Source of the DNA: Cellulomonas sp. SG140
GTDB lineage: Bacteria; Actinomycetota; Actinomycetes; Actinomycetales; Cellulomonadaceae
Assembly (NCBI RefSeq): GCF_025770785.1
Contig: NZ_JANZLA010000012.1
Location: 1 to 64,000 of the forward strand
Reading direction: 5' to 3'
Length of the DNA: 64,000 bases
In this document: piece after piece, positions 22,926 to 33,500 of the stretch
How the letters are laid out: the number at the start of each line of letters is the position of its first letter
How positions within the stretch are numbered: the first letter of the stretch is position 1
Translations under genes and position numbers: made by a program
The notes under the pieces: model-generated
The model's input: the letters and a program-made list of their open reading frames with translations, nothing else
Told to the model about the DNA's origin: nothing
The model's database searches: none

Positions 22926-24530
22926 TCAGCGGGCGGGGACTCCGGCCTTGTACAGGCCCCAGATCACCGAGTCGGTCAAGGCCTCCCACGACGCCTCGAT
23001 CAGGTTGGGCCCCACCCCGACGGTGCTCCACGACGAGCTGCCGTCCGTGGTCTCGATCAGGACTCGCGTGATCGCGTCGGTACCGAGCTGCGAGTCGAGG
23101 ATCCGCACCTTGAAGTCGATCAGCACGAACGGCTCGAGCTCGGGGTAGACGCCGAGCAGGGCGTGCCGGAGCGCGTGGTTCAGCGCGTCGACGGGGCCGT
23201 TCCCCTCCCCCGTGCTGACGAAGCGCTCGCCGCCTGCGTGCAGCTTGACCGTCGCCTCGGCGGTCGCCGCCGTACCGCGGCCGCCCCGGCGCTCGATGAT
23301 CGTGCGCCACGACTCGACCGTGAAGTACGCGGGCTTGCCGGCACCGGCCTCCTCGAGCAGGAGCAGCTCGAACGACGCATCCGCGGCCTCGTAGGTGTAC
23401 CCGTTGGCCTCGGCGTCCTTGACGCGGTTGGTCACCGCGGCGAGCACCTGCGGCCGGTCGGAGAGGTCGAAGCCCAGCTCGCGACCCTTGAGCTCGATGG
23501 ACGCCCGGCCCGCCATGTCGGAGACGAGCATGCGCATGTCGTTGCCCACGGCAGCCGGGTCGGCGTGCTGGTAGAGGTCCGGGTCGATCCGGATCGCCGA
23601 CGCGTGCAGGCCCGCCTTGTGCGCGAAGGCGCTCGCACCGACGTACGGCGACCGGGCGAACGGCGAGATGTTGGTGATCTCGCTGATCGCGTGGGCGATG
23701 CGGGTCAGCTCGCGAAGACCGCCGCCGTCCACCGCCGCCAGGACCGGCCGCCCGAGCTTGAGCTCCAGGTCCGCCACGACCGTGAGCAGGTCGGCGTTGC
23801 CCGTCCGCTCCCCGTAGCCGTTGACGGTCCCCTGCACGTGCTCGCAGCCCGCCTCGACCGCCGCGAGCGTGTTGGCCACCGCGCACCCGGAGTCGTTGTG
23901 CGCGTGCATGCCGAGGATGCCGGCGGGCCCGACCGCCTCGCGCAGCTCGGTGACGATGCGCGTCACCCAGGCGGGCAGCATCCCGCCGTTGGTGTCGCAC
24001 AGCGTGACCACCTCGGCGCCCGCCTCGAACGCCGTCAGCACCGCGGCGCGGGAGAAGTCGGCGTCGAACCGGTAGCCGTCGAACAGGTGCTCGGCGTCCA
24101 CCACCACCCGCCGTCCCTCGCGGACCAGGAACCGCACGGTGTCGGCGATCATCGCCAGGCCCTCGTCGGGCGTCGTCCGCAGCGCGCGCTCCACGTGCCG
24201 GACGTCGCTCTTGGCGACCACCGTCACCACGGGCGTCTCCGCGTCCACCAGCGCGCGCACCTGCGGGTCGTCGGCCGCGCGCGCGTCGGCGCGGCGCGTG
24301 GCGCCGAACGCCGCGAGCACCGCGTGCCGCAGGTCGAGCTCCTTGGCCGCACGCTTGAAGAACTCGGTGTCCTTGGGCACGGCGCCCGGCCAGCCGCCCT
24401 CGATGTAGCCCACGCCGAGCTCGTCCAGCAGCGGGACGATCGCCAGCTTGTCGGCGACCGACAGGGCGATGCCCTCCTGCTGGGCGCCGTCGCGCAACGT
24501 GGTGTCGTACACCTGGAAGCCAGTGCTCAC
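22926..24530 (-). CDS. cimA: (R)-citramalate synthase
   Basis: 534-residue member of the isopropylmalate/homocitrate synthase family that condenses pyruvate with acetyl-CoA, opening the threonine-independent route to 2-oxobutyrate and isoleucine. Motifs: DTTLRDGAQQEG, GGWPGAVPKDTEFF, metal-binding HAHNDSGCAVANTL and GTVNGYGERTGNADL. The C-terminal regulatory domain (about 400-534) ends with VLIETTDGSSSWSTVGVGPN, the LeuA-dimer-like region for isoleucine feedback. Length and the TLRDGAQQEG signature fit the CimA class and not LeuA. GTG 24530 is the conserved start. It lies downstream of an attenuator-like leader (24626-24714). Confidence 0.93.
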   Translation of the reverse strand: MSTGFQVYDTTLRDGAQQEGIALSVADKLAIVPLLDELGVGYIEGGWPGAVPKDTEFFKRAAKELDLRHAVLAAFGATRRADARAADDPQVRALVDAETPVVTVVAKSDVRHVERALRTTPDEGLAMIADTVRFLVREGRRVVVDAEHLFDGYRFDADFSRAAVLTAFEAGAEVVTLCDTNGGMLPAWVTRIVTELREAVGPAGILGMHAHNDSGCAVANTLAAVEAGCEHVQGTVNGYGERTGNADLLTVVADLELKLGRPVLAAVDGGGLRELTRIAHAISEITNISPFARSPYVGASAFAHKAGLHASAIRIDPDLYQHADPAAVGNDMRMLVSDMAGRASIELKGRELGFDLSDRPQVLAAVTNRVKDAEANGYTYEAADASFELLLLEEAGAGKPAYFTVESWRTIIERRGGRGTAATAEATVKLHAGGERFVSTGEGNGPVDALNHALRHALLGVYPELEPFVLIDFKVRILDSQLGTDAITRVLIETTDGSSSWSTVGVGPNLIEASWEALTDSVIWGLYKAGVPAR

Positions 24531-24625
24531 GTGGGCTCTCCTGCTCGTGCGGTGCGGGACCGGCGGGGGTGGTGCCGGGGGCGACGTACCGGGCGGGGGT
24601 GGTGCCCGGGAACCGTCGGTGACAA

Positions 24626-24655
24626 CAAAAAGACCCCCCGAGGGTCGGGAGGTCT
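24626..24655 (-). terminator. Intrinsic terminator (attenuator) in the cimA leader
   Basis: On the minus strand AGACCTCCC-GACCCTC-GGGGGGTCT followed by TTTTTG: a 9-bp stem with one G-U pair and a U-run, 96 nt before the cimA start codon. It sits inside the 5' untranslated region and not after a gene, which is the attenuator position. Confidence 0.85.
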
Positions 24656-24685
24656 GCGCGTCGGCGGAGGTGGTTGCCGACGCGC
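24656..24685 (-). promoter_or_regulatory. Perfect pause hairpin preceding the cimA attenuator
   Basis: GCGCGTCGGC-AACCACCTCC-GCCGACGCGC, a perfect 10-bp stem with a 10-nt loop. It starts at the last base of the leader-peptide stop codon and abuts the terminator. The loop carries ACCTCC, a repeat of the terminator 5' arm (ACCTCCC), so it could compete for the G-run when the stem is opened by a stalled ribosome. Confidence 0.75.
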
Positions 24686-24714
24686 TATCCAATGATGAGG
24701 TGGAACCGGGTCAC
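24685..24714 (-). CDS. cimA leader peptide with Leu-Ile-Ile codons
   Basis: Nine codons: GTG, then Thr-Arg-Phe-His-Leu-Ile-Ile-Gly and TAG. The control codons CTC ATC ATT lie 12 to 4 nt before the stop. The ATT codon is rare in such a GC-rich genome. Stalling at the Ile codons would cover the 5' arm of the hairpin that begins at the stop codon. A GTG at 24732 in the same frame is an alternative start adding six residues. No clear Shine-Dalgarno sequence is present. Confidence 0.68.
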   Translation of the reverse strand: MTRFHLIIG

Positions 24715-24760
24715 GCCGCCATGGTGGCACACGTCACGTCCGGTGGACACCCCGTCCGGC

Positions 24761-24800
24761 CTGTGGACGACGCCGCGCCGACGTGCGGCGTCGTCCACAG
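24761..24800 (-). terminator. Perfect 16-bp hairpin terminator after ilvE
   Basis: CTGTGGACGACGCCGC and GCGGCGTCGTCCACAG flank an 8-nt loop, 7 nt beyond the ilvE stop. No U-run. It separates ilvE from the cimA leader, implying that cimA has its own promoter in 24715-24760; no good -10 element is obvious there. Confidence 0.7.
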
Positions 24801-24807
24801 GTGCGGT

Positions 24808-25917
24808 TCAGGCGATCCGGTGCAGCCAGCCGTACCGGTCCTCGGCGCGCCCGTACTGGATGTCCGTCAGCTGCTGCCGCACCAGGGTGGTGACGGCCCC
24901 CGCCTCACCCGTGCCGACCGTCAGGTCGAAGTCGTCCGACGCCAGCCGTCCGATCGGCGTCATCACCGCGGCCGTGCCGCACGCGAACACCTCGGTCACC
25001 GACCCGTCCCGCAGCCCCGCGGTCAGGTCGGCCAGCAGCACGGCCTCCTCGTGGACCGGGTGCCCGGACTCCTCGAGCAGCTGGATGATCGACGACCGGG
25101 TGACGCCCTCGAGGATCGACCCGGTCAGCGGCGGCGTGCTGACGTGCCCGTCGGCGTGCACCACCATCACGTTCATCCCGCCGAGCTCCTCCAGCTGCGT
25201 CCCGGTGGTCGCGTCGAGGAAGCACACCTGCTCGAAGCCCTTTGCGTAGGCCTCCTGCTGCGGCAGCAGGCTGGCGGCGTAGTTGCCGCCGCACTTGGCC
25301 GCACCGGTGCCGCCCGGACCGGCCCGGTGGTAGTCGCGGTCCACCCAGATGGACACCGGCTTGACGCCGCCGGCGAAGTACGGACCGACGGGCGACGCGA
25401 TGACCAGGAACTCCACGGCGCCGGCGGGCCGCACGCCGAGGAACGACTCCGACGCGTACATGAACGGCCGCAGGTACAGGCTCATCTCCTCGCCCGTCGG
25501 CACCCAGGCGCGGTCCACCGTGACCAGCGCCTGGATCGCACCCAGGAAGTCCTGCGTGGACAGCTCCGGGAGGGCCAGGCGGCGGGCCGATCGCGCGAAG
25601 CGCGCTGCGTTCACCTCGGGTCGGAAGGTCCAGACCGAGCCGTCGGCGTGCCGGTACGCCTTGAGCCCCTCGAAGATCTCCTGCGCGTAGTGCAGCACGG
25701 CGGTGGCGGGGTCGAGCTGCAGCGGGCCGTAGGGCTCCACCCGCCGGTCGTGCCAGCCGTCGGCGGTGGACCAGCTGATCCGTGCCATGTGGTCGGTGAA
25801 CACCGTGCCGAACCGCGGGGACGCCAGCGCGGCCTCGCGCTCGGCGTCCGGCACCGGGTGGGCGCTGGGACGGATCTCGAACAGGTCGGGCGTGGTCGTG
25901 CTCATGTCCGTGCTCAT
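24808..25917 (-). CDS. ilvE: Branched-chain amino-acid aminotransferase
   Basis: 369-residue fold-type IV PLP transaminase that catalyses the last step to valine, leucine and isoleucine with glutamate. The PLP lysine is in GAAKCGGNYAASL. Other signatures: LHYAQEIFEGLKAYR, LYLRPFMYASESFLGV, ELGGMNVMVV, SILEGVTRSSIIQL and EVFACGTAAVMTPIG. The ATG at 25917 is chosen because the minus-strand ribosome site GAAAGG precedes it at a good distance; a second ATG four codons in is also possible. It is 85 nt downstream of leuB in the same direction, and is followed by a strong hairpin. Confidence 0.95.
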   Translation of the reverse strand: MSTDMSTTTPDLFEIRPSAHPVPDAEREAALASPRFGTVFTDHMARISWSTADGWHDRRVEPYGPLQLDPATAVLHYAQEIFEGLKAYRHADGSVWTFRPEVNAARFARSARRLALPELSTQDFLGAIQALVTVDRAWVPTGEEMSLYLRPFMYASESFLGVRPAGAVEFLVIASPVGPYFAGGVKPVSIWVDRDYHRAGPGGTGAAKCGGNYAASLLPQQEAYAKGFEQVCFLDATTGTQLEELGGMNVMVVHADGHVSTPPLTGSILEGVTRSSIIQLLEESGHPVHEEAVLLADLTAGLRDGSVTEVFACGTAAVMTPIGRLASDDFDLTVGTGEAGAVTTLVRQQLTDIQYGRAEDRYGWLHRIA

Positions 25918-26002
25918 GTGAGGGCCTTTCACCAGGGTCGGGGACGACGGTACCGGTGACGACGGCCGGGGCGGCAGGACAGGGTCGCGAGCGACCCCGG
26001 GG

Positions 26003-27088
26003 TCAGCCGGCGATGCGGGAGACGAGGTCCTGGCCCACCTCGGCCGTCGACCGTACTCGCGCAGCCCCGGCCCGGTCGGCCAGGTCGGCCGCGACGGCCG
26101 CCTCGACGCGGGCCGCGGCGTCCGGGAGCCCGAGGTGGTCGAGCAGCATCGCGACGGACAGAACCGTGGCCGTCGGGTCCGCCTTGCCCTGCCCTGCGAT
26201 GTCCGGGGCGGAGCCGTGCACCGGCTCGAACATGCTCGGCGCGGTGCGGTCCGGGTTGACGTTGCCCGAGGCAGCCAGGCCGATCCCGCCCGTGATCGCC
26301 GCGGCGAGGTCCGTGAGGATGTCGCCGAACAGGTTGTCGGTCACCACGACGTCGAACCGGGACGGGTCGGTGACCAGGTAGATCGTGGCGGCGTCGACGT
26401 GCGAGTAGTCGACCGTCACGTCGGGGAACTCGGCGTTCACCGCGTCGACCGTGCGGCGCCACAGGTGGCCCGCGTGCACCAGCACGTTGTGCTTGTGCAC
26501 CAGCGTCAGCTGCTTCCGGGGTCGGCGCGAGGCGACCTCGAAGGCGTACCGGACCACCCGCTCGACGCCGAAGGCGGTGTTGAGGCTCACCTCGGTGGCC
26601 ACCTCGTGCGGCGTGCCGGCGCGGAGCGCACCACCGTTGCCGACGTACGGACCCTCGGTGCCCTCACGGACGACGACGAAGTCGACCTCGCCCGCGTCGG
26701 CCAGCGGGGACCGCACGCCCGGGTAGAGCCGGCCGGGCCGGAGGTTGACGTAGTGGTCCAGCGCGAACCGGAGCCGCAGCAGCAGGCCGCGCTCGAGCAC
26801 GCCGGACGGCACCGTCGGGTCGCCGACCGCGCCGAGCAGGATCGCGTCGTGGGTGCGGATCGCGGCGAGGTCGTCGTCCGTCAACGTCTCGCCCGTGGCG
26901 TGCCAGCGCCGCGCACCGAGGTCGAACTGCGTGGTGCGCAGCGACGGGCCGCCGCCGGCCAGGGCCGCCTCGAGGGCGAGGAGGCCCTGCTCCACCACCT
27001 CGATGCCGATGCCGTCCCCCGGCACGACGGCCAGGTCGAGCACGGTCGGGTCGGCGAGGGCGGGCACCTGCGGTGCGGCGTCGGACAT
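26003..27088 (-). CDS. leuB: 3-isopropylmalate dehydrogenase
   Basis: 361-residue beta-decarboxylating dehydrogenase of leucine synthesis. Motifs: [34 protein letters not shown] (substrate arginines), [59 protein letters not shown] and the NAD-binding [24 protein letters not shown] 27088 is preceded by TAGCGT (27101-27096) 7 nt upstream with no ribosome site, so leaderless. A 20-bp dyad (27110-27129) covers the expected -35. Confidence 0.94.
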
Positions 27089-29666: not shown

Positions 29667-31514
29667 TCAGTCTTCCCGGTCCCACGCCGGGGACAGTCCC
29701 CGGGCGTACTGGATGTCGTCGTTGCTCACTCCGGCGGCCACCATCGGCCAGACCATCGCGTCGCGGGAGACGGTGAAGTCCACCACCACGGGCTGGTCGT
29801 CGATCTCCATCGCGCGCTTGATGGTCGCGTCCACGTCGGCCTTGGTCTCGCACCGCAGCCCGACCGCGCCGTAGGCGTCGGCCAGCTTGACGAAGTCCGG
29901 GATCCGCACCGTGCCGTGGCCGGTGTGCAGGTCGGTGTTGGAGTAGCGCGACTCGTAGAACAGGGTCTGCCACTGGCGCACCATGCCGAGCGAGGAGTTG
30001 TTGATCACCGCCACCTTGATCGGGATGTCGTTGATCGCGCAGGTGGCCAGCTCCTGGTTGGTCATCTGGAAGCAGCCGTCGCCGTCGATCGCCCAGACGG
30101 TGCGGTCGGGCTGGCCGACCTTGGCGCCCATCGCGGCCGGCACGGCGTAGCCCATGGTGCCGAGGCCCCCCGAGTTCAGCCACGACTTGGGCCGGGAGTA
30201 CCTGATGAACTGCGCGGCCCACATCTGGTGCTGGCCCACGCCCGCCACGAAGATCGACTCCGGCCCGGAGATCTCCCCGATCCGGCTGATCACGTGCTGC
30301 GGCGCCAGGTGGCCGTCGTGCGGCTCGTCGTACCCGAGCGGGAACGTCTCGCGCCACGCGTCCAGCTGCCGCCACCACGCCTCGAGGTCCGGCTTGCCGT
30401 GGTGCGCCTGCTCGCGCTCGAGCTCCGGCAGCAGGTCCGCGATGACCTCCTTGAGGTCGCCGACGATCGGCACGTCCACCCGGACGTTCTTGCCGATCTC
30501 CGCCGGGTCGATGTCGGCGTGCACCACGGCGGCGTTCGGCGCGAAGCTCGACAGCAGACCGGTGACACGGTCGTCGAACCGGGCGCCGAGCGCCACGATC
30601 AGGTCCGCGCGCTGCAGGGCCGCCACCGCGGGCACCGTGCCGTGCATGCCCGGCATGCCCAGGTGCTGCGGGTGGTCGTCGGGCAGCGCGCCGCGGGCCA
30701 TCAGCGTGGTGGTCACCGCCGCACCCGAGGCGTCCACCAGCCGGCGCAGCAGCGCGGTCGCATCGGCGCGGATCACGCCGCCGCCGACCAGCAGCACCGG
30801 CCGCCGTGCCGTGGCCAGCAGCCGGGCCGCCTCACGCACCTGCTTGGCGTGCGGCTTGGTCACCGGGTGGTACCCGGGCAGCTGGATCTCCTGCGGCCAG
30901 GAGAACGTCGTCCGCGCCTGCATCGCCGACTTGGCGATGTCGACCAGCACCGGCCCTGGCCGTCCCGTCGAGGCGATGTGGAAGGCCTCCGCGATCACCC
31001 GGGGGATCTCGTCCGCGTCCGTCACCAGGTAGTTGTGCTTGCTCACCGGCAGCGTGATGCCGACGATGTCCGCCTCCTGGAAGGCGTCCGTACCGATCAG
31101 CGCGGCGCCGACCTGACCCGTGATCGCCACCATGGGGATCGAGTCCATGTTCGCGTCGGCGATCGCGGTGACCAGGTTGGTCGCACCCGGCCCCGAGGTC
31201 GCCATCGTCACGCCGACCTTGCCGGTGGCGTGGGCGTACCCGGAGGCCGCGTGACCACCGCCCTGCTCGTGGCGCACCAGGATGTGGCGCACCTTGGCCG
31301 AGTCCATCAGCGGGTCGTAGGTCGGCAGGATCGCGCCGCCGGGGATGCCGAAGACGACCTCGACGCCGACCTCCTCGAGCGACCGGACGATCGACTGCGC
31401 GCCGGTGACCTGCTCGGGCCCGATCGTCGAGCCGTGCTGCGGTGCGGCGGGCGGCCGCGCGGCGGCCGCGGGCCGCGGCGTCGCGGGTGGTGCCGGGTGA
31501 GGACCCTGGACCAT
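29667..31514 (-). CDS. ilvB: Acetolactate synthase large (catalytic) subunit
   Basis: 615-residue ThDP enzyme making acetolactate or acetohydroxybutyrate, the first common step to valine, leucine and isoleucine. Motifs: [14 protein letters not shown] with the catalytic Glu slightly later in [14 protein letters not shown], the FAD-binding middle domain, and the ThDP motif [20 protein letters not shown] followed by [20 protein letters not shown]. The N-terminal 35 residues are Ala/Pro-rich and precede the conserved [19 protein letters not shown]. It is preceded by a 197-nt leader with leader peptide and attenuator. Confidence 0.97.
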
Positions 31515-31584
31515 CGGTGTCTCCTCGGGGTCGGACTGCGGGACTGCTGGACTTCGGACTACGGCGCTACAGGTCCCCGAACAC

Positions 31585-31624
31585 GAAAAAACCCCTCGGC
31601 CCGGGGACGGGCTGGTCGAGGGGT
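31585..31624 (-). terminator. Intrinsic terminator (attenuator) in the ilvB leader
   Basis: Minus strand: ACCCCTCG pairs with CGAGGGGT, with an inner GCCCG-TCCC-CGGGC helix, followed by TTTTTCG. It lies 71 nt before the ilvB start codon. Between it and the leader peptide (31625-31665) a second, imperfect helix can form (GCGC ... GCGC with GACGA pairing to TCGTC). Confidence 0.85.
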
Positions 31625-31665
31625 GCGCGCGGACGAAGACCGGAGCGGGAGGTCGTCGCCGGCGC

Positions 31666-31698
31666 TCAGGTAAGTACTACGAGGAGGTTCGTCTGCAC
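31666..31698 (-). CDS. ilvB leader peptide with Leu-Leu-Val-Val-Leu codons
   Basis: Ten codons: GTG, Gln-Thr-Asn-Leu-Leu-Val-Val-Leu-Thr, TGA. Five consecutive branched-chain codons (CTC CTC GTA GTA CTT) include GTA and CTT, which are rare in GC-rich genomes and favour stalling. A -10 (TAGTGT) ends 7 nt before the GTG and no ribosome site is present, so the peptide is probably read from a leaderless mRNA end. Confidence 0.82.
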
Positions 31699-31705
31699 CC
31701 GCCGG

Positions 31706-31735
31706 ACACTACGCCACGGGCCCACGCGCTGTCAC
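31706..31735 (-). promoter_or_regulatory. Promoter of the ilvBHC operon
   Basis: Minus strand GTGACA (31735-31730), 18-bp spacer, TAGTGT (31711-31706). The -35 lies mostly in the loop of the terminator hairpin of the upstream alpha-glucosidase gene (31718-31745), so terminator and promoter overlap physically. Confidence 0.7.
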
Positions 31736-31745
31736 GCGTGGGTCC
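31718..31745 (-). terminator. Hairpin terminator after the GH13 gene
   Basis: GGACCCACGCG-TGACAG-CGCGTGGGCCC on the minus strand: 11 bp with one G-U pair, 43 nt beyond the alpha-glucosidase stop. No U-run. Confidence 0.6.
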
Positions 31746-31787
31746 GTTCGTCTCACATCGCGGTGCACGGTCTCGGATCGCGGGACG

Positions 31788-33500
31788 TCACGCACGCAGC
31801 CTGCGGTAGACGCGTGCCTCCCACGCGCGCAGGGCCGTGTCGGGCCCGGGCGTCTCCCCCGGGTACGAGCCGATCAGCACCTCCGCGTCGGCGGGCCACG
31901 GGTCGTCGAGCGTCACCGGCTGCGGGTCGCCCGTGAAGTTGCCGAGCACCAGCAGCTCCTCGGTGCCGAGGCGGCGCGTGAACGCGTACACGTGCTCGTC
32001 GTCGGGCAGCAGCATGGTGAAGTCGCCGAGGGCCACCACGTCGTGCTCGTGCCGCAGCGCGATCAGGCGGCGGTAGTGGGCGAACACCGAGTCCGGGTCC
32101 GCCCGGTCCTCCCGCGCGTTGATCGTCGTGTGGTTCACGTTGACCGGCAGCCACGGCTGACCGGTGGTGAACCCCGCCTGCGGCGAGTCGTCCCACTGCA
32201 TCGGGGTGCGGGCGTTGTCCCGGCTCATGGCCGCGAGCGCCGTCAGCAGCTGCTGGTCGGTCAGCGTCCCTGCGGCGCGCATCTCCTCGACGTACCGGAG
32301 CGACTCGATGTCGCGGTAGTGGTCGAACGTGTCCCAGTGCGCGTTGGTCATGCCCAGCTCCTCGCCCTGGTACACGTACGGCGTGCCGCGGTGCAGGTGC
32401 AGGACGGTGGCGAGCATCCGGGCGGACTCGCGGCGGTAACGGCCGTCGTCGCCCCAGCGGGAGACGATGCGCGGCTGGTCGTGGTTGTCCCAGTAGAGGG
32501 AGTTCCAGCCCCGCTCGGCCAGCCCCACCTGCCACCGGCCCAGCACCGCCTTCAGGTCGGTCAGCCTCAGCGGCCGCACGTCGAACTTGCCGCCCGGACC
32601 GTGGTCGAGATCGACGTGCTCGAAGGTGAACACCATGTCGAGCTCGTGCCGTGCGGGGTCCGTGTAGCGCTCACCGTCGGCCACCGTCGCACCGGGGGTC
32701 TCCCCCACGGTGATCAGCTTGTCGGCCCGCCCGGCGAACACCTCGCGGTGCATCTCCGCGAGGAACTCGTGCACCCGCGGGCCGTTGGCGACCAGCGGAC
32801 CGGCGTGGGCACCGTGCTGCGCCTCGCCGTCGGGCAGCCGCGGGTCCTTGGAGATCAGGTTGATGACGTCCATCCGGAAGCCGTCGACCCCCCGGTCGAG
32901 CCACCAGCGCATCATCGAGTAGACGGCCGCGCGGACGTCCGGGTTCTCCCAGTTCAGGTCGGGCTGCCGGCGGGAGAACAGGTGCAGGTAGTACTCGCCC
33001 GTCGCCTGGTCGTACTGCCACGCCGGGCCCGAGAAGAAGGACCCCCAGTTGTTCGGCTCGGCACCGGTGGTCCCGGCCTCCATGCCCTCGCGCGCCGGCC
33101 GCCACCAGTACCAGTCCCGCTTGGGGTCGTCCTTCGACGAGCGCGAGGCGACGAACCACGGGTGCGCGTCGGAGGTGTGGTTGACGACGAGGTCCATCAC
33201 CAGCCGGATGCCGTGGCCGTGCAGCGTGTCGATCAGCTCGTCGAGGTCGGCCAGCGTGCCGAACATCGGGTCGACGTCCCGGTAGTCGCTGATGTCGTAG
33301 CCGTTGTCGTCCTGCGGGCTGCGGTACACCGGCGACAGCCACACCACGTCCACGCCCAGGTCGACCAGGTGGTCGACGTGCTCGAGGATCCCCCGCAGGT
33401 CGCCCATGCCGTCGCCGTCGGAGTCGGCGAAGGAGCGCGGGTAGATCTGGTAGACGACGGCGCGCGTCCACCACGGGGCGTCGGCGGGGGTGAAGGTCAC
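31788..33500 (-). CDS. GH13 alpha-glucosidase (oligo-1,6-glucosidase type)
   Basis: 570-residue cytoplasmic glycoside hydrolase (no signal peptide). TIM-barrel motifs: region I DLVVNHTSDAHPWF, region II GFRMDVINLI (nucleophile Asp), region III ITVGETPG (acid/base Glu) and region IV WDNHDQPR. A valine directly after the nucleophile Asp is the residue associated with alpha-1,6 specificity in this subfamily, whereas maltases have Thr; isomaltase-like activity is therefore predicted. GTG start; TTTGAT lies 6 nt upstream. Its place between ilvB and ilvD, both in branched-chain synthesis, looks like an insertion and it has its own terminator. Confidence 0.9.
   Translation of the reverse strand: MTFTPADAPWWTRAVVYQIYPRSFADSDGDGMGDLRGILEHVDHLVDLGVDVVWLSPVYRSPQDDNGYDISDYRDVDPMFGTLADLDELIDTLHGHGIRLVMDLVVNHTSDAHPWFVASRSSKDDPKRDWYWWRPAREGMEAGTTGAEPNNWGSFFSGPAWQYDQATGEYYLHLFSRRQPDLNWENPDVRAAVYSMMRWWLDRGVDGFRMDVINLISKDPRLPDGEAQHGAHAGPLVANGPRVHEFLAEMHREVFAGRADKLITVGETPGATVADGERYTDPARHELDMVFTFEHVDLDHGPGGKFDVRPLRLTDLKAVLGRWQVGLAERGWNSLYWDNHDQPRIVSRWGDDGRYRRESARMLATVLHLHRGTPYVYQGEELGMTNAHWDTFDHYRDIESLRYVEEMRAAGTLTDQQLLTALAAMSRDNARTPMQWDDSPQAGFTTGQPWLPVNVNHTTINAREDRADPDSVFAHYRRLIALRHEHDVVALGDFTMLLPDDEHVYAFTRRLGTEELLVLGNFTGDPQPVTLDDPWPADAEVLIGSYPGETPGPDTALRAWEARVYRRLRA

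Follow-up and report, generated by a model that had tools for sequence, protein, structure and literature searches.

An abutting two-hairpin leader before the citramalate synthase gene cimA of Cellulomonas and other actinomycetes: a probable isoleucine-responsive transcription attenuator

The citramalate synthase gene cimA of Cellulomonas sp. SG140 is preceded by a short leader that is very probably a ribosome-mediated transcription attenuator, tying cimA transcription to charged Ile-tRNA by means of a hairpin (H1) which abuts the terminator hairpin (H2) and would serve as its antiterminator. Attenuation of cimA by isoleucine supply is, as a prediction from sequence, well supported by the conservation of the leader, its association with cimA, covariation in H1, the position of the isoleucine codons, an excess of the rare codon ATT and the exchange of these codons for others in front of a second gene. 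Since H1 and H2 share no bases we infer that exclusion is by position, H1 acting as a steric block of the abutting terminator. Citramalate synthase feeds isoleucine, or butanol-type products in strain design, and the leader has a bearing on such design. If the reading is correct, the citramalate (threonine-independent) route to isoleucine in actinomycetes has its own end-product switch, and if H1 acts without a shared strand it forms an exception to the textbook competition of antiterminator and terminator for the same bases.

The window analysed is a stretch of 64,000 nucleotides, in which the features concerned lie on the minus strand in the order ilvE, -10-like hexamer, leader ORF, H1, H2 and cimA. 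The upstream neighbour ilvE has its 3' end at 24808. The hexamer CACCAT (24726-24721) ends 6 nt 5' of the start codon of a leader ORF of nine codons plus UAG (24714-24685; GTG ACC CGG TTC CAC CTC ATC ATT GGA TAG), which reads M-T-R-F-H-L-I-I-G-stop. The sensor codons ATC ATT (Ile-Ile; 24691-24696) are placed such that the last isoleucine codon starts 8 nt 5' of H1 (24685-24656; GCGCGTCGGC-AACCACCTCC-GCCGACGCGC), a hairpin of 10 perfect pairs with a GCGC clamp at its base, covarying in relatives, the first G of which is the final base of the leader UAG. H2 (24655-24631), the intrinsic terminator stem AGACCTCCCGACCCTCGGGGGGTCT identified by terminator scan, follows with a linker of 0 nt, and the run T24630-24627 stands directly 3' of it in a U-tract with conserved tail TTTTGTTGTC (24630-24621). 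The regulated gene (22926-24530) starts with GTG at 24530, 96 nt 3' of the U-run. It scores 593 bits against TIGR00977 (cut-off 450), which agrees with the initial annotation as citramalate synthase, and in the profile search it also scores against leuA models. Re-reading of the coordinates bore out the layout that had been described: nine-codon ORF, 10-bp hairpin from the stop codon, abutting U-run hairpin and 96 nt to cimA.

Folding of 24600-24720 gives -58.8 kcal/mol (z -3.6), a stability equalled by 0 of 200 shuffles, and the exact terminator pattern has a single occurrence in the 3.8-Mb genome assembly. Rfam 15, which includes T-box and riboswitch families, has no match in the window at gathering score; below threshold there are 7 weak matches in 24400-24800. 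A strong ilvE terminator had been placed upstream of the leader, and a perfect 16-bp hairpin is indeed found there (24800-24761, minus strand), but it has no minus-strand T-run and is unlisted in the terminator scan of 23500-26500. By eye, a paired stem change is seen in this hairpin in the close relative L003, which suggests that it may be a U-less terminator or a processing site.

A scan of species genomes yielded 518 cimA-like loci, of which the best 80, mostly from Cellulomonas and near relatives, were taken. The element is present in 76 of these 80; in L032, L058 and L064 the contig ends too soon to show it, and Sanguibacter suaedae (L071), with cimA close behind ilvE, is without it. A covariance model, R1, was built from 57 sequences with the window included, and scores 89.8 bits on the window, itself one of the building sequences. 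R1 matches 159 of 396 genomes and 56 of 109 genera in the order, and 217 of 394 genomes and 95 of 138 genera in the class, the two draws overlapping. Inspection of 114 matched regions, picked to span families rather than drawn at random, revealed cimA behind 103, ilvB behind 11 and another gene behind none: 59 cimA (by tblastn) and 3 ilvB among the 62 at order level, 44 cimA and 8 ilvB among the 52 at class level. All these sequences are mutually related, many of them closely, so the counts are not independent events. Judged by comparison of genomes the leader is real, not a product of chance, and widespread in order and class, and as a simple marker it could point to transcription units of cimA and of ilvB. 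A lack of conservation of codons, stems and U-run had been named as grounds for refutation; the opposite was found, and they are conserved in relatives.

Among the 237 order genomes lacking an R1 match, cimA was looked for in 20: 12 had no cimA-like stretch above 41% identity (one had no match at all), 7 had cimA and 1 more had a cimA cut at the contig end. Six of the 7 cimA genes overlap, or follow within at most about 80 nt, a gene end read by eye as ilvE; for the seventh locus, L187, the upstream gene could not be told. With L071 included, seven loci (L071 and L181-L186; ilvE by eye) have cimA overlapping or closely following ilvE and lack the element, which therefore seems tied to cimA having its own promoter. 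By gene order, loss of the leader appears to go with cimA joining the ilvE operon. Could H2 then simply serve as 3' terminator for ilvE, or for some other gene upstream? Of 71 loci tested, 62 do have ilvE on the same strand 5' of the leader, but its match ends at anything from 102 to 1892 nt 5' of the leader stop, the element is present in the 9 other loci, where the upstream DNA examined has no ilvE, and it is missing from just those 7 loci in which cimA sits close behind ilvE, which makes this explanation extremely unlikely.

An isoleucine codon stands 5' of H1 in each of the 76 carrying loci (in L057 seen by eye; in L077 the leader start lies beyond the contig end) and in all 44 class-level cimA copies (L267 by eye). 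The last isoleucine codon lies 8 nt from H1 in 115 of 136 cimA leaders and at 6-11 nt in the others, two being unscored; the class-level range is 6-13 nt, with 8 nt in 17 of 44 and one unscored. In some families the ORF continues into H1 while the distance between isoleucine codon and H1 is unchanged. Codon choice sets the leaders apart from the gene that follows, with rare ATT accounting for 58 of 148 isoleucine codons in the first set of leaders versus 12 of 1691 in cimA genes; the leader stop is UAG in 124 of 136, the cimA stop in 3 of 80. The sensor had been described as Leu-Ile-Ile. Isoleucine is conserved, but leucine is no conserved sensor, as the residue preceding Ile-Ile varies (Leu, Ile, Ser, Val or other). 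That 10 of 77 leaders have a single isoleucine codon counts against isoleucine sensing. Conservation, covariation and codon position all speak for the central claim of the initial annotation, namely that a leader-peptide attenuator of cimA reads isoleucine supply, and this claim appears to stand.

A hexamer of the form xA...T is found 6-7 nt 5' of an in-frame ATG or GTG in 125 of 133 leaders, versus 15.8 expected from shuffled upstream DNA, and several of the remaining 8 have a similar hexamer slightly further upstream. At class level a hexamer precedes the start by 6-10 nt in 42 of 43 leaders, a count that comes with no control set. We infer that the leader start codon, or a position beside it, is the transcript start, and that the leader is translated without a ribosome-binding site. 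A cimA transcript starting downstream of 24626 had been named as a possible objection; the -10-like hexamer of the window instead puts the likely start at the leader start codon.

Pairing was assessed in alignments fitted to the R1 structure (A2, A3), a procedure which favours the model. In the order set, 62 sequences from outside the model, standard pairing holds for 97.1% of the cells of both helices, the controls giving 84.7% for shuffled alignments and no more than 71.0% with one strand slid, and 6 of the 10 H1 pairs have changed on both sides. Two of five covariation measures are less striking in this set: 8 double-changed pairs versus 6.0 in shuffled alignments, a value matched by 13 of 500 shuffles, and the number of further pair types, matched by 25 of 500. 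The class set of 52 sequences, likewise from outside the model, has 95.6% paired cells (shuffled 86.1%, slid at most 60.1%) and 9 double-changed pairs versus 5.6 shuffled, matched by 2 of 500.

Two leaders (L136, L165), in which H1 was misplaced and the isoleucine codons were seen by eye, were excluded from pairing, masking and base-pair counts, leaving 134; L232, misplaced likewise, is included in the class-level counts. In 134 of 134 leaders, registered on GCGC, pairs 1 and 2 of the H1 base are G-C and C-G, and in 115 of 134 the outermost H2 pair is A-U: the base of H1 is strong, that of H2 weak. When contiguous basal pairs are required in the stems, the linker between H1 and H2 measures 0 nt in 106 of 139 leaders (136 of cimA and 3 of ilvB) and +1 or -1 in 29; it is 0 or +1 nt, hence without overlap, in 129 of 139, and 0 nt in 33 of 44 at class level. 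If a basal mismatch is allowed most leaders show an H1/H2 overlap of 1-2 nt, which we judged not to be real because the basal pairs involved are weak, a mismatch followed by a wobble. An outlier form occurs in L262, L263 and L266 (f37 g126), with the sensor Met-Ile-Met and a very long inner part of H1 (match of 134-135 nt).

According to the initial annotation a stalled ribosome opens H1, the loop ACCTCC of which then pairs with the G-run of the terminator, as in a classical antiterminator. The window loop can pair with GGGGGT, and pairing of this kind has been proposed for Corynebacterium ilvB-II (PMC10272879), yet across the relatives it stands at the level of chance. Over 134 leaders the longest helix between H1 loop and terminator G-arm averages 3.92 bp versus 3.90 for shuffled loops, with 6 bp reached in 12; the loops vary in sequence and in length, from 2 to 44 nt, and measure only 2-4 nt in 18. 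For the RNA further upstream, pairing with either arm of the terminator stays at the level of shuffled RNA (mean z 0.67 and -0.19 for every third leader, 45 of 134). Loop pairing is for these reasons very unlikely. An antiterminator of the classical kind, in which the leader or H1 would share a strand with the terminator by pairing with one of its arms, was rejected since it shows no excess over shuffled sequence, and so was membership of the trp-type 2:3 class, which is defined by a shared strand: a strand common to H1 and H2 was not found in the 134 leaders, the arms of 45 of which were tested.

The effect of ribosome position was modelled by masking the RNA as far as 12 nt past the first base of the A site. 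In the folding models H2 forms in all three ribosome states (P 0.96-0.97 on average and 0.58 in the lowest single leader), while P for H1 is 0.99 in free RNA, 0.37 with the ribosome at the last isoleucine codon and 0 with the ribosome at the stop (mean 0.00). It is thus H1, not H2, that reports ribosome position. A purely thermodynamic switch was rejected: with H2 formed under every mask, folding cannot by itself account for switching. A ribosome of standard footprint, stopped with the last isoleucine codon in its A site, would cover approximately 5 nt of H1; of 9.2 basal pairs a mean of 4.2, the unmasked upper ones, are left and have P 0.75, which counts against the scheme set out below. Rather than stalling opening H1, as had been supposed, the geometry suggests the reverse: part of H1 survives a ribosome on isoleucine, and none of it survives one at the stop.

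These data are consistent with the following scheme. When isoleucine is plentiful the ribosome would pass the isoleucine codons to the stop or into H1 and cover or unwind the H1 5' arm, by which the RNA 5' of H2 would become flexible; H2 would close and transcription would stop. When isoleucine is scarce the ribosome would wait on the isoleucine codons, 5-8 nt from H1, and H1 could form. A distance of 5-8 nt between the A-site codon and the hairpin is also the spacing at frameshift-stimulating hairpins, where a ribosome can be positioned without the stem being opened. The standing H1, with its linker of 0 nt and unvarying GCGC clamp, would keep the weak base of H2 open in the exit channel of RNA polymerase, and with H2 kept open the polymerase would read through such that cimA is made. 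Given that starvation should switch cimA on and that starvation allows H1, this hairpin is best read as an antiterminator, which would share position, not sequence, with the terminator. Naked RNA shows no sign of the proposed exclusion, H2 forming in the folding models wherever the ribosome is placed, and this counts against the scheme.

An isoleucine-sensing attenuator could also operate with the role of H1 reversed, intact H1 stacking on H2 and thereby aiding the terminator until a stalled ribosome covers the base of H1, which would break the stack and make termination weaker. We consider this unlikely. Stacking would agree with the coexistence of both hairpins in naked RNA and with a stalled footprint that covers a few nucleotides of the unvarying GCGC base, and a zero linker would favour it. 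However, the predicted formation of H2 is as good in the absence of H1 (mean P 0.96); H1 is lost still more completely to a ribosome at the stop, which would therefore have to be released fast; and the model for C. glutamicum, as described in PMC11857589, gives antitermination to the hairpin that forms during the pause at the control codons.

The reading of H1 as a positional antiterminator may extend to ilvB, which in the same window has a leader of similar layout (31586-31711, minus strand). A -10-like TAGTGT is followed, 7 nt further on, by the GTG of the ORF GTG CAG ACG AAC CTC CTC GTA GTA CTT ACC TGA (31698-31666), with sensor codons Leu-Leu-Val-Val-Leu, among them rare GTA and CTT, and with UGA as stop. 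A GCGC-based hairpin (31665-31625), a terminator stem (31624-31591) and a U-tract follow (together 31586-31665); by the geometry script the H1 base has 4 bp and the linker 2 nt. Unconstrained folding of 31570-31720 gives other pairings with a z of -1.5, not above shuffles, R1 scores 13.1 bits (E 0.38) on 31580-31685, and a sub-threshold Rfam search of 31380-31800 gave no match. Elsewhere, an ilvB match was found in 19 of 23 loci searched, 16 of which have a scorable leader. In these leaders and that of the window, 17 in total, the distance from the last sensor codon to the hairpin is 8 nt in 9 leaders, the others falling within 5-11 nt, and the linker is 0 nt in 8, within 1 nt in 12 and up to 4 nt in the others. 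The sensor codons tallied are GTA 25, CTC 18, CTT 11 and GTC 4, numbers partly set by the search pattern as this contains CTC-GTA or GTC-GTA; in cimA genes GTA accounts for 12 of 3940 valine codons and CTT for 18 of 4059 leucine codons. The ilvB copies retain the layout with Leu/Val codons of the CTC-GTA-CTT type, which is, as far as sequence can tell, a natural codon swap, and this swap between cimA and ilvB amounts to a natural experiment on the retargeting of attenuators. As the codons differ by gene at the same GCGC hairpin, one genome could read isoleucine and leucine/valine separately. We tentatively suggest that there may be an actinomycete-wide family of abutting-hairpin attenuators, having an antiterminator with no base in common with the terminator, which would act by filling the room in the polymerase exit channel that closure of the terminator requires, and a gene-specific codon cassette, Ile-Ile for cimA and Leu-Val-Leu for ilvB, at a near-fixed distance from the hairpin.

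The swap also bears on whether the codons act as sensor at all. A protein or other signal might act on H1/H2 or on promoter DNA, with an incidental ORF; the unvarying GCGC arms would suit such a signal, and codon changes in the ilvB leader of S. coelicolor were without effect, as told in PMC1262725. Set against this are the conserved reading frame, the position of isoleucine, the excess of rare codons and the replacement of isoleucine at cimA by Leu/Val at ilvB, while an H1 loop of anything from 2 to 44 nt is unlike a fixed operator. A signal other than the codons therefore seems improbable, and sensing by the isoleucine codons remains our preferred reading.

The leader has the sequence features of an attenuator in the broad sense, that is to say codons for the end product in a short ORF and an intrinsic terminator between ORF and gene. 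Attenuators of the E. coli trp/his/ilv type combine product codons, an intrinsic terminator and ribosome position as the switch with a 2:3 antiterminator built in part from a strand of the 3:4 terminator; a strand shared in this way was not found in the cimA leader. The nearest precedent is ilvBNC of C. glutamicum, in which, according to PMC11857589, the bases of the antiterminator adjoin those of the terminator and the two hairpins contend for three nucleotides at their boundary. The Corynebacterium system (ilvB-II; C. glutamicum IlvL) is described as a leader ORF with branched-chain codons, a single hairpin and, adjoining it, an intrinsic terminator, much as here, and its transcript, which begins one nt away from the leader start, can be likened to that predicted for the cimA leader (PMC10272879, PMC11857589). 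It differs in that it controls ilvB with mixed Ile/Leu/Val codons, whereas the gene here is cimA, with paralogues before ilvB, and in that its antiterminator is said to overlap the terminator by a GCC trinucleotide, or its loop to pair with P2a, whereas here no bases are shared. Thus, of the features that define ilvB-II, the cimA leader has the branched-chain uORF with two hairpins, the second a terminator, and lacks pairing of the P1 loop with the lower terminator arm. Concerning the codons, PMC11857589 relates that replacement of three valine residues abolished the valine response in C. glutamicum, and PMC1262725 that altering codons of the ilvB leader in S. coelicolor reportedly left regulation as it was.

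Streptomyces ilvL-ilvBHC is another close system. In three of four class-level ilvB copies of one genus (L269-L271) the leader peptide is MRTRILVLGKRVG, identical to the IlvL peptide given for Streptomyces lividans in PMC8079986. R1 finds these same-peptide ilvB leaders with a GCGC hairpin and then a terminator, in likeness to the cimA leader, but they control ilvB and carry Leu/Val/Ile codons. S. lividans IlvL is reported there as leaderless on the basis of RNA-seq, as part of a survey of 5' UTRs of amino acid genes that lists 8 leader peptides; the main text of PMC8079986 has neither cimA nor citramalate. The actinobacterial LEU element of leuA resembles the cimA leader in placing a leader peptide before a related synthase gene; compared by its description in PMC1262725 it is a pseudoknot, with a base stem pairing leucine codons with a Shine-Dalgarno box, and is described without an intrinsic terminator, which the cimA leader has. 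In the titles and abstract openings searched, from a literature short of subscription papers, there was no published attenuator of a citramalate synthase gene, and a term search of the main texts of PMC11109978, PMC8632094 and PMC6429828 returned no citramalate, cimA or Cellulomonas.

Downstream of the terminator, the cimA 5' UTR of the window contains two hairpins with identical ACCACCCCC loops (24609-24560). The 15-mer GGCACCACCCCCGCC occurs in the genome assembly only at 24562-24576 and 24592-24606, and with 2 copies a genome-wide repeat was rejected as their source. CACC is present in 104 of 136 downstream stretches of 50 nt versus 51 expected, and in a hairpin loop in 30 of these 104 (control 70 of 505); folding of the 136 stretches is hardly better than that of shuffled sequence (mean z -0.23). 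A binding site for Rho or for a protein would be a guess in either case. The UUG of the conserved tail was considered as another cimA start or as a second leader ORF, and dropped because the frame relative to cimA differs, the distance being 96 nt in the window and 95 nt in L003, a relative with 97% identity. The tail UUUUUGUUG (A1 columns 94-104; window 24630-24621) is nearly invariant in the 57 aligned sequences, perhaps more so than the needs of a U-tract would demand, and in three Isoptericola loci (L061, L066, L069) it reads UUUUUUCAUG instead.
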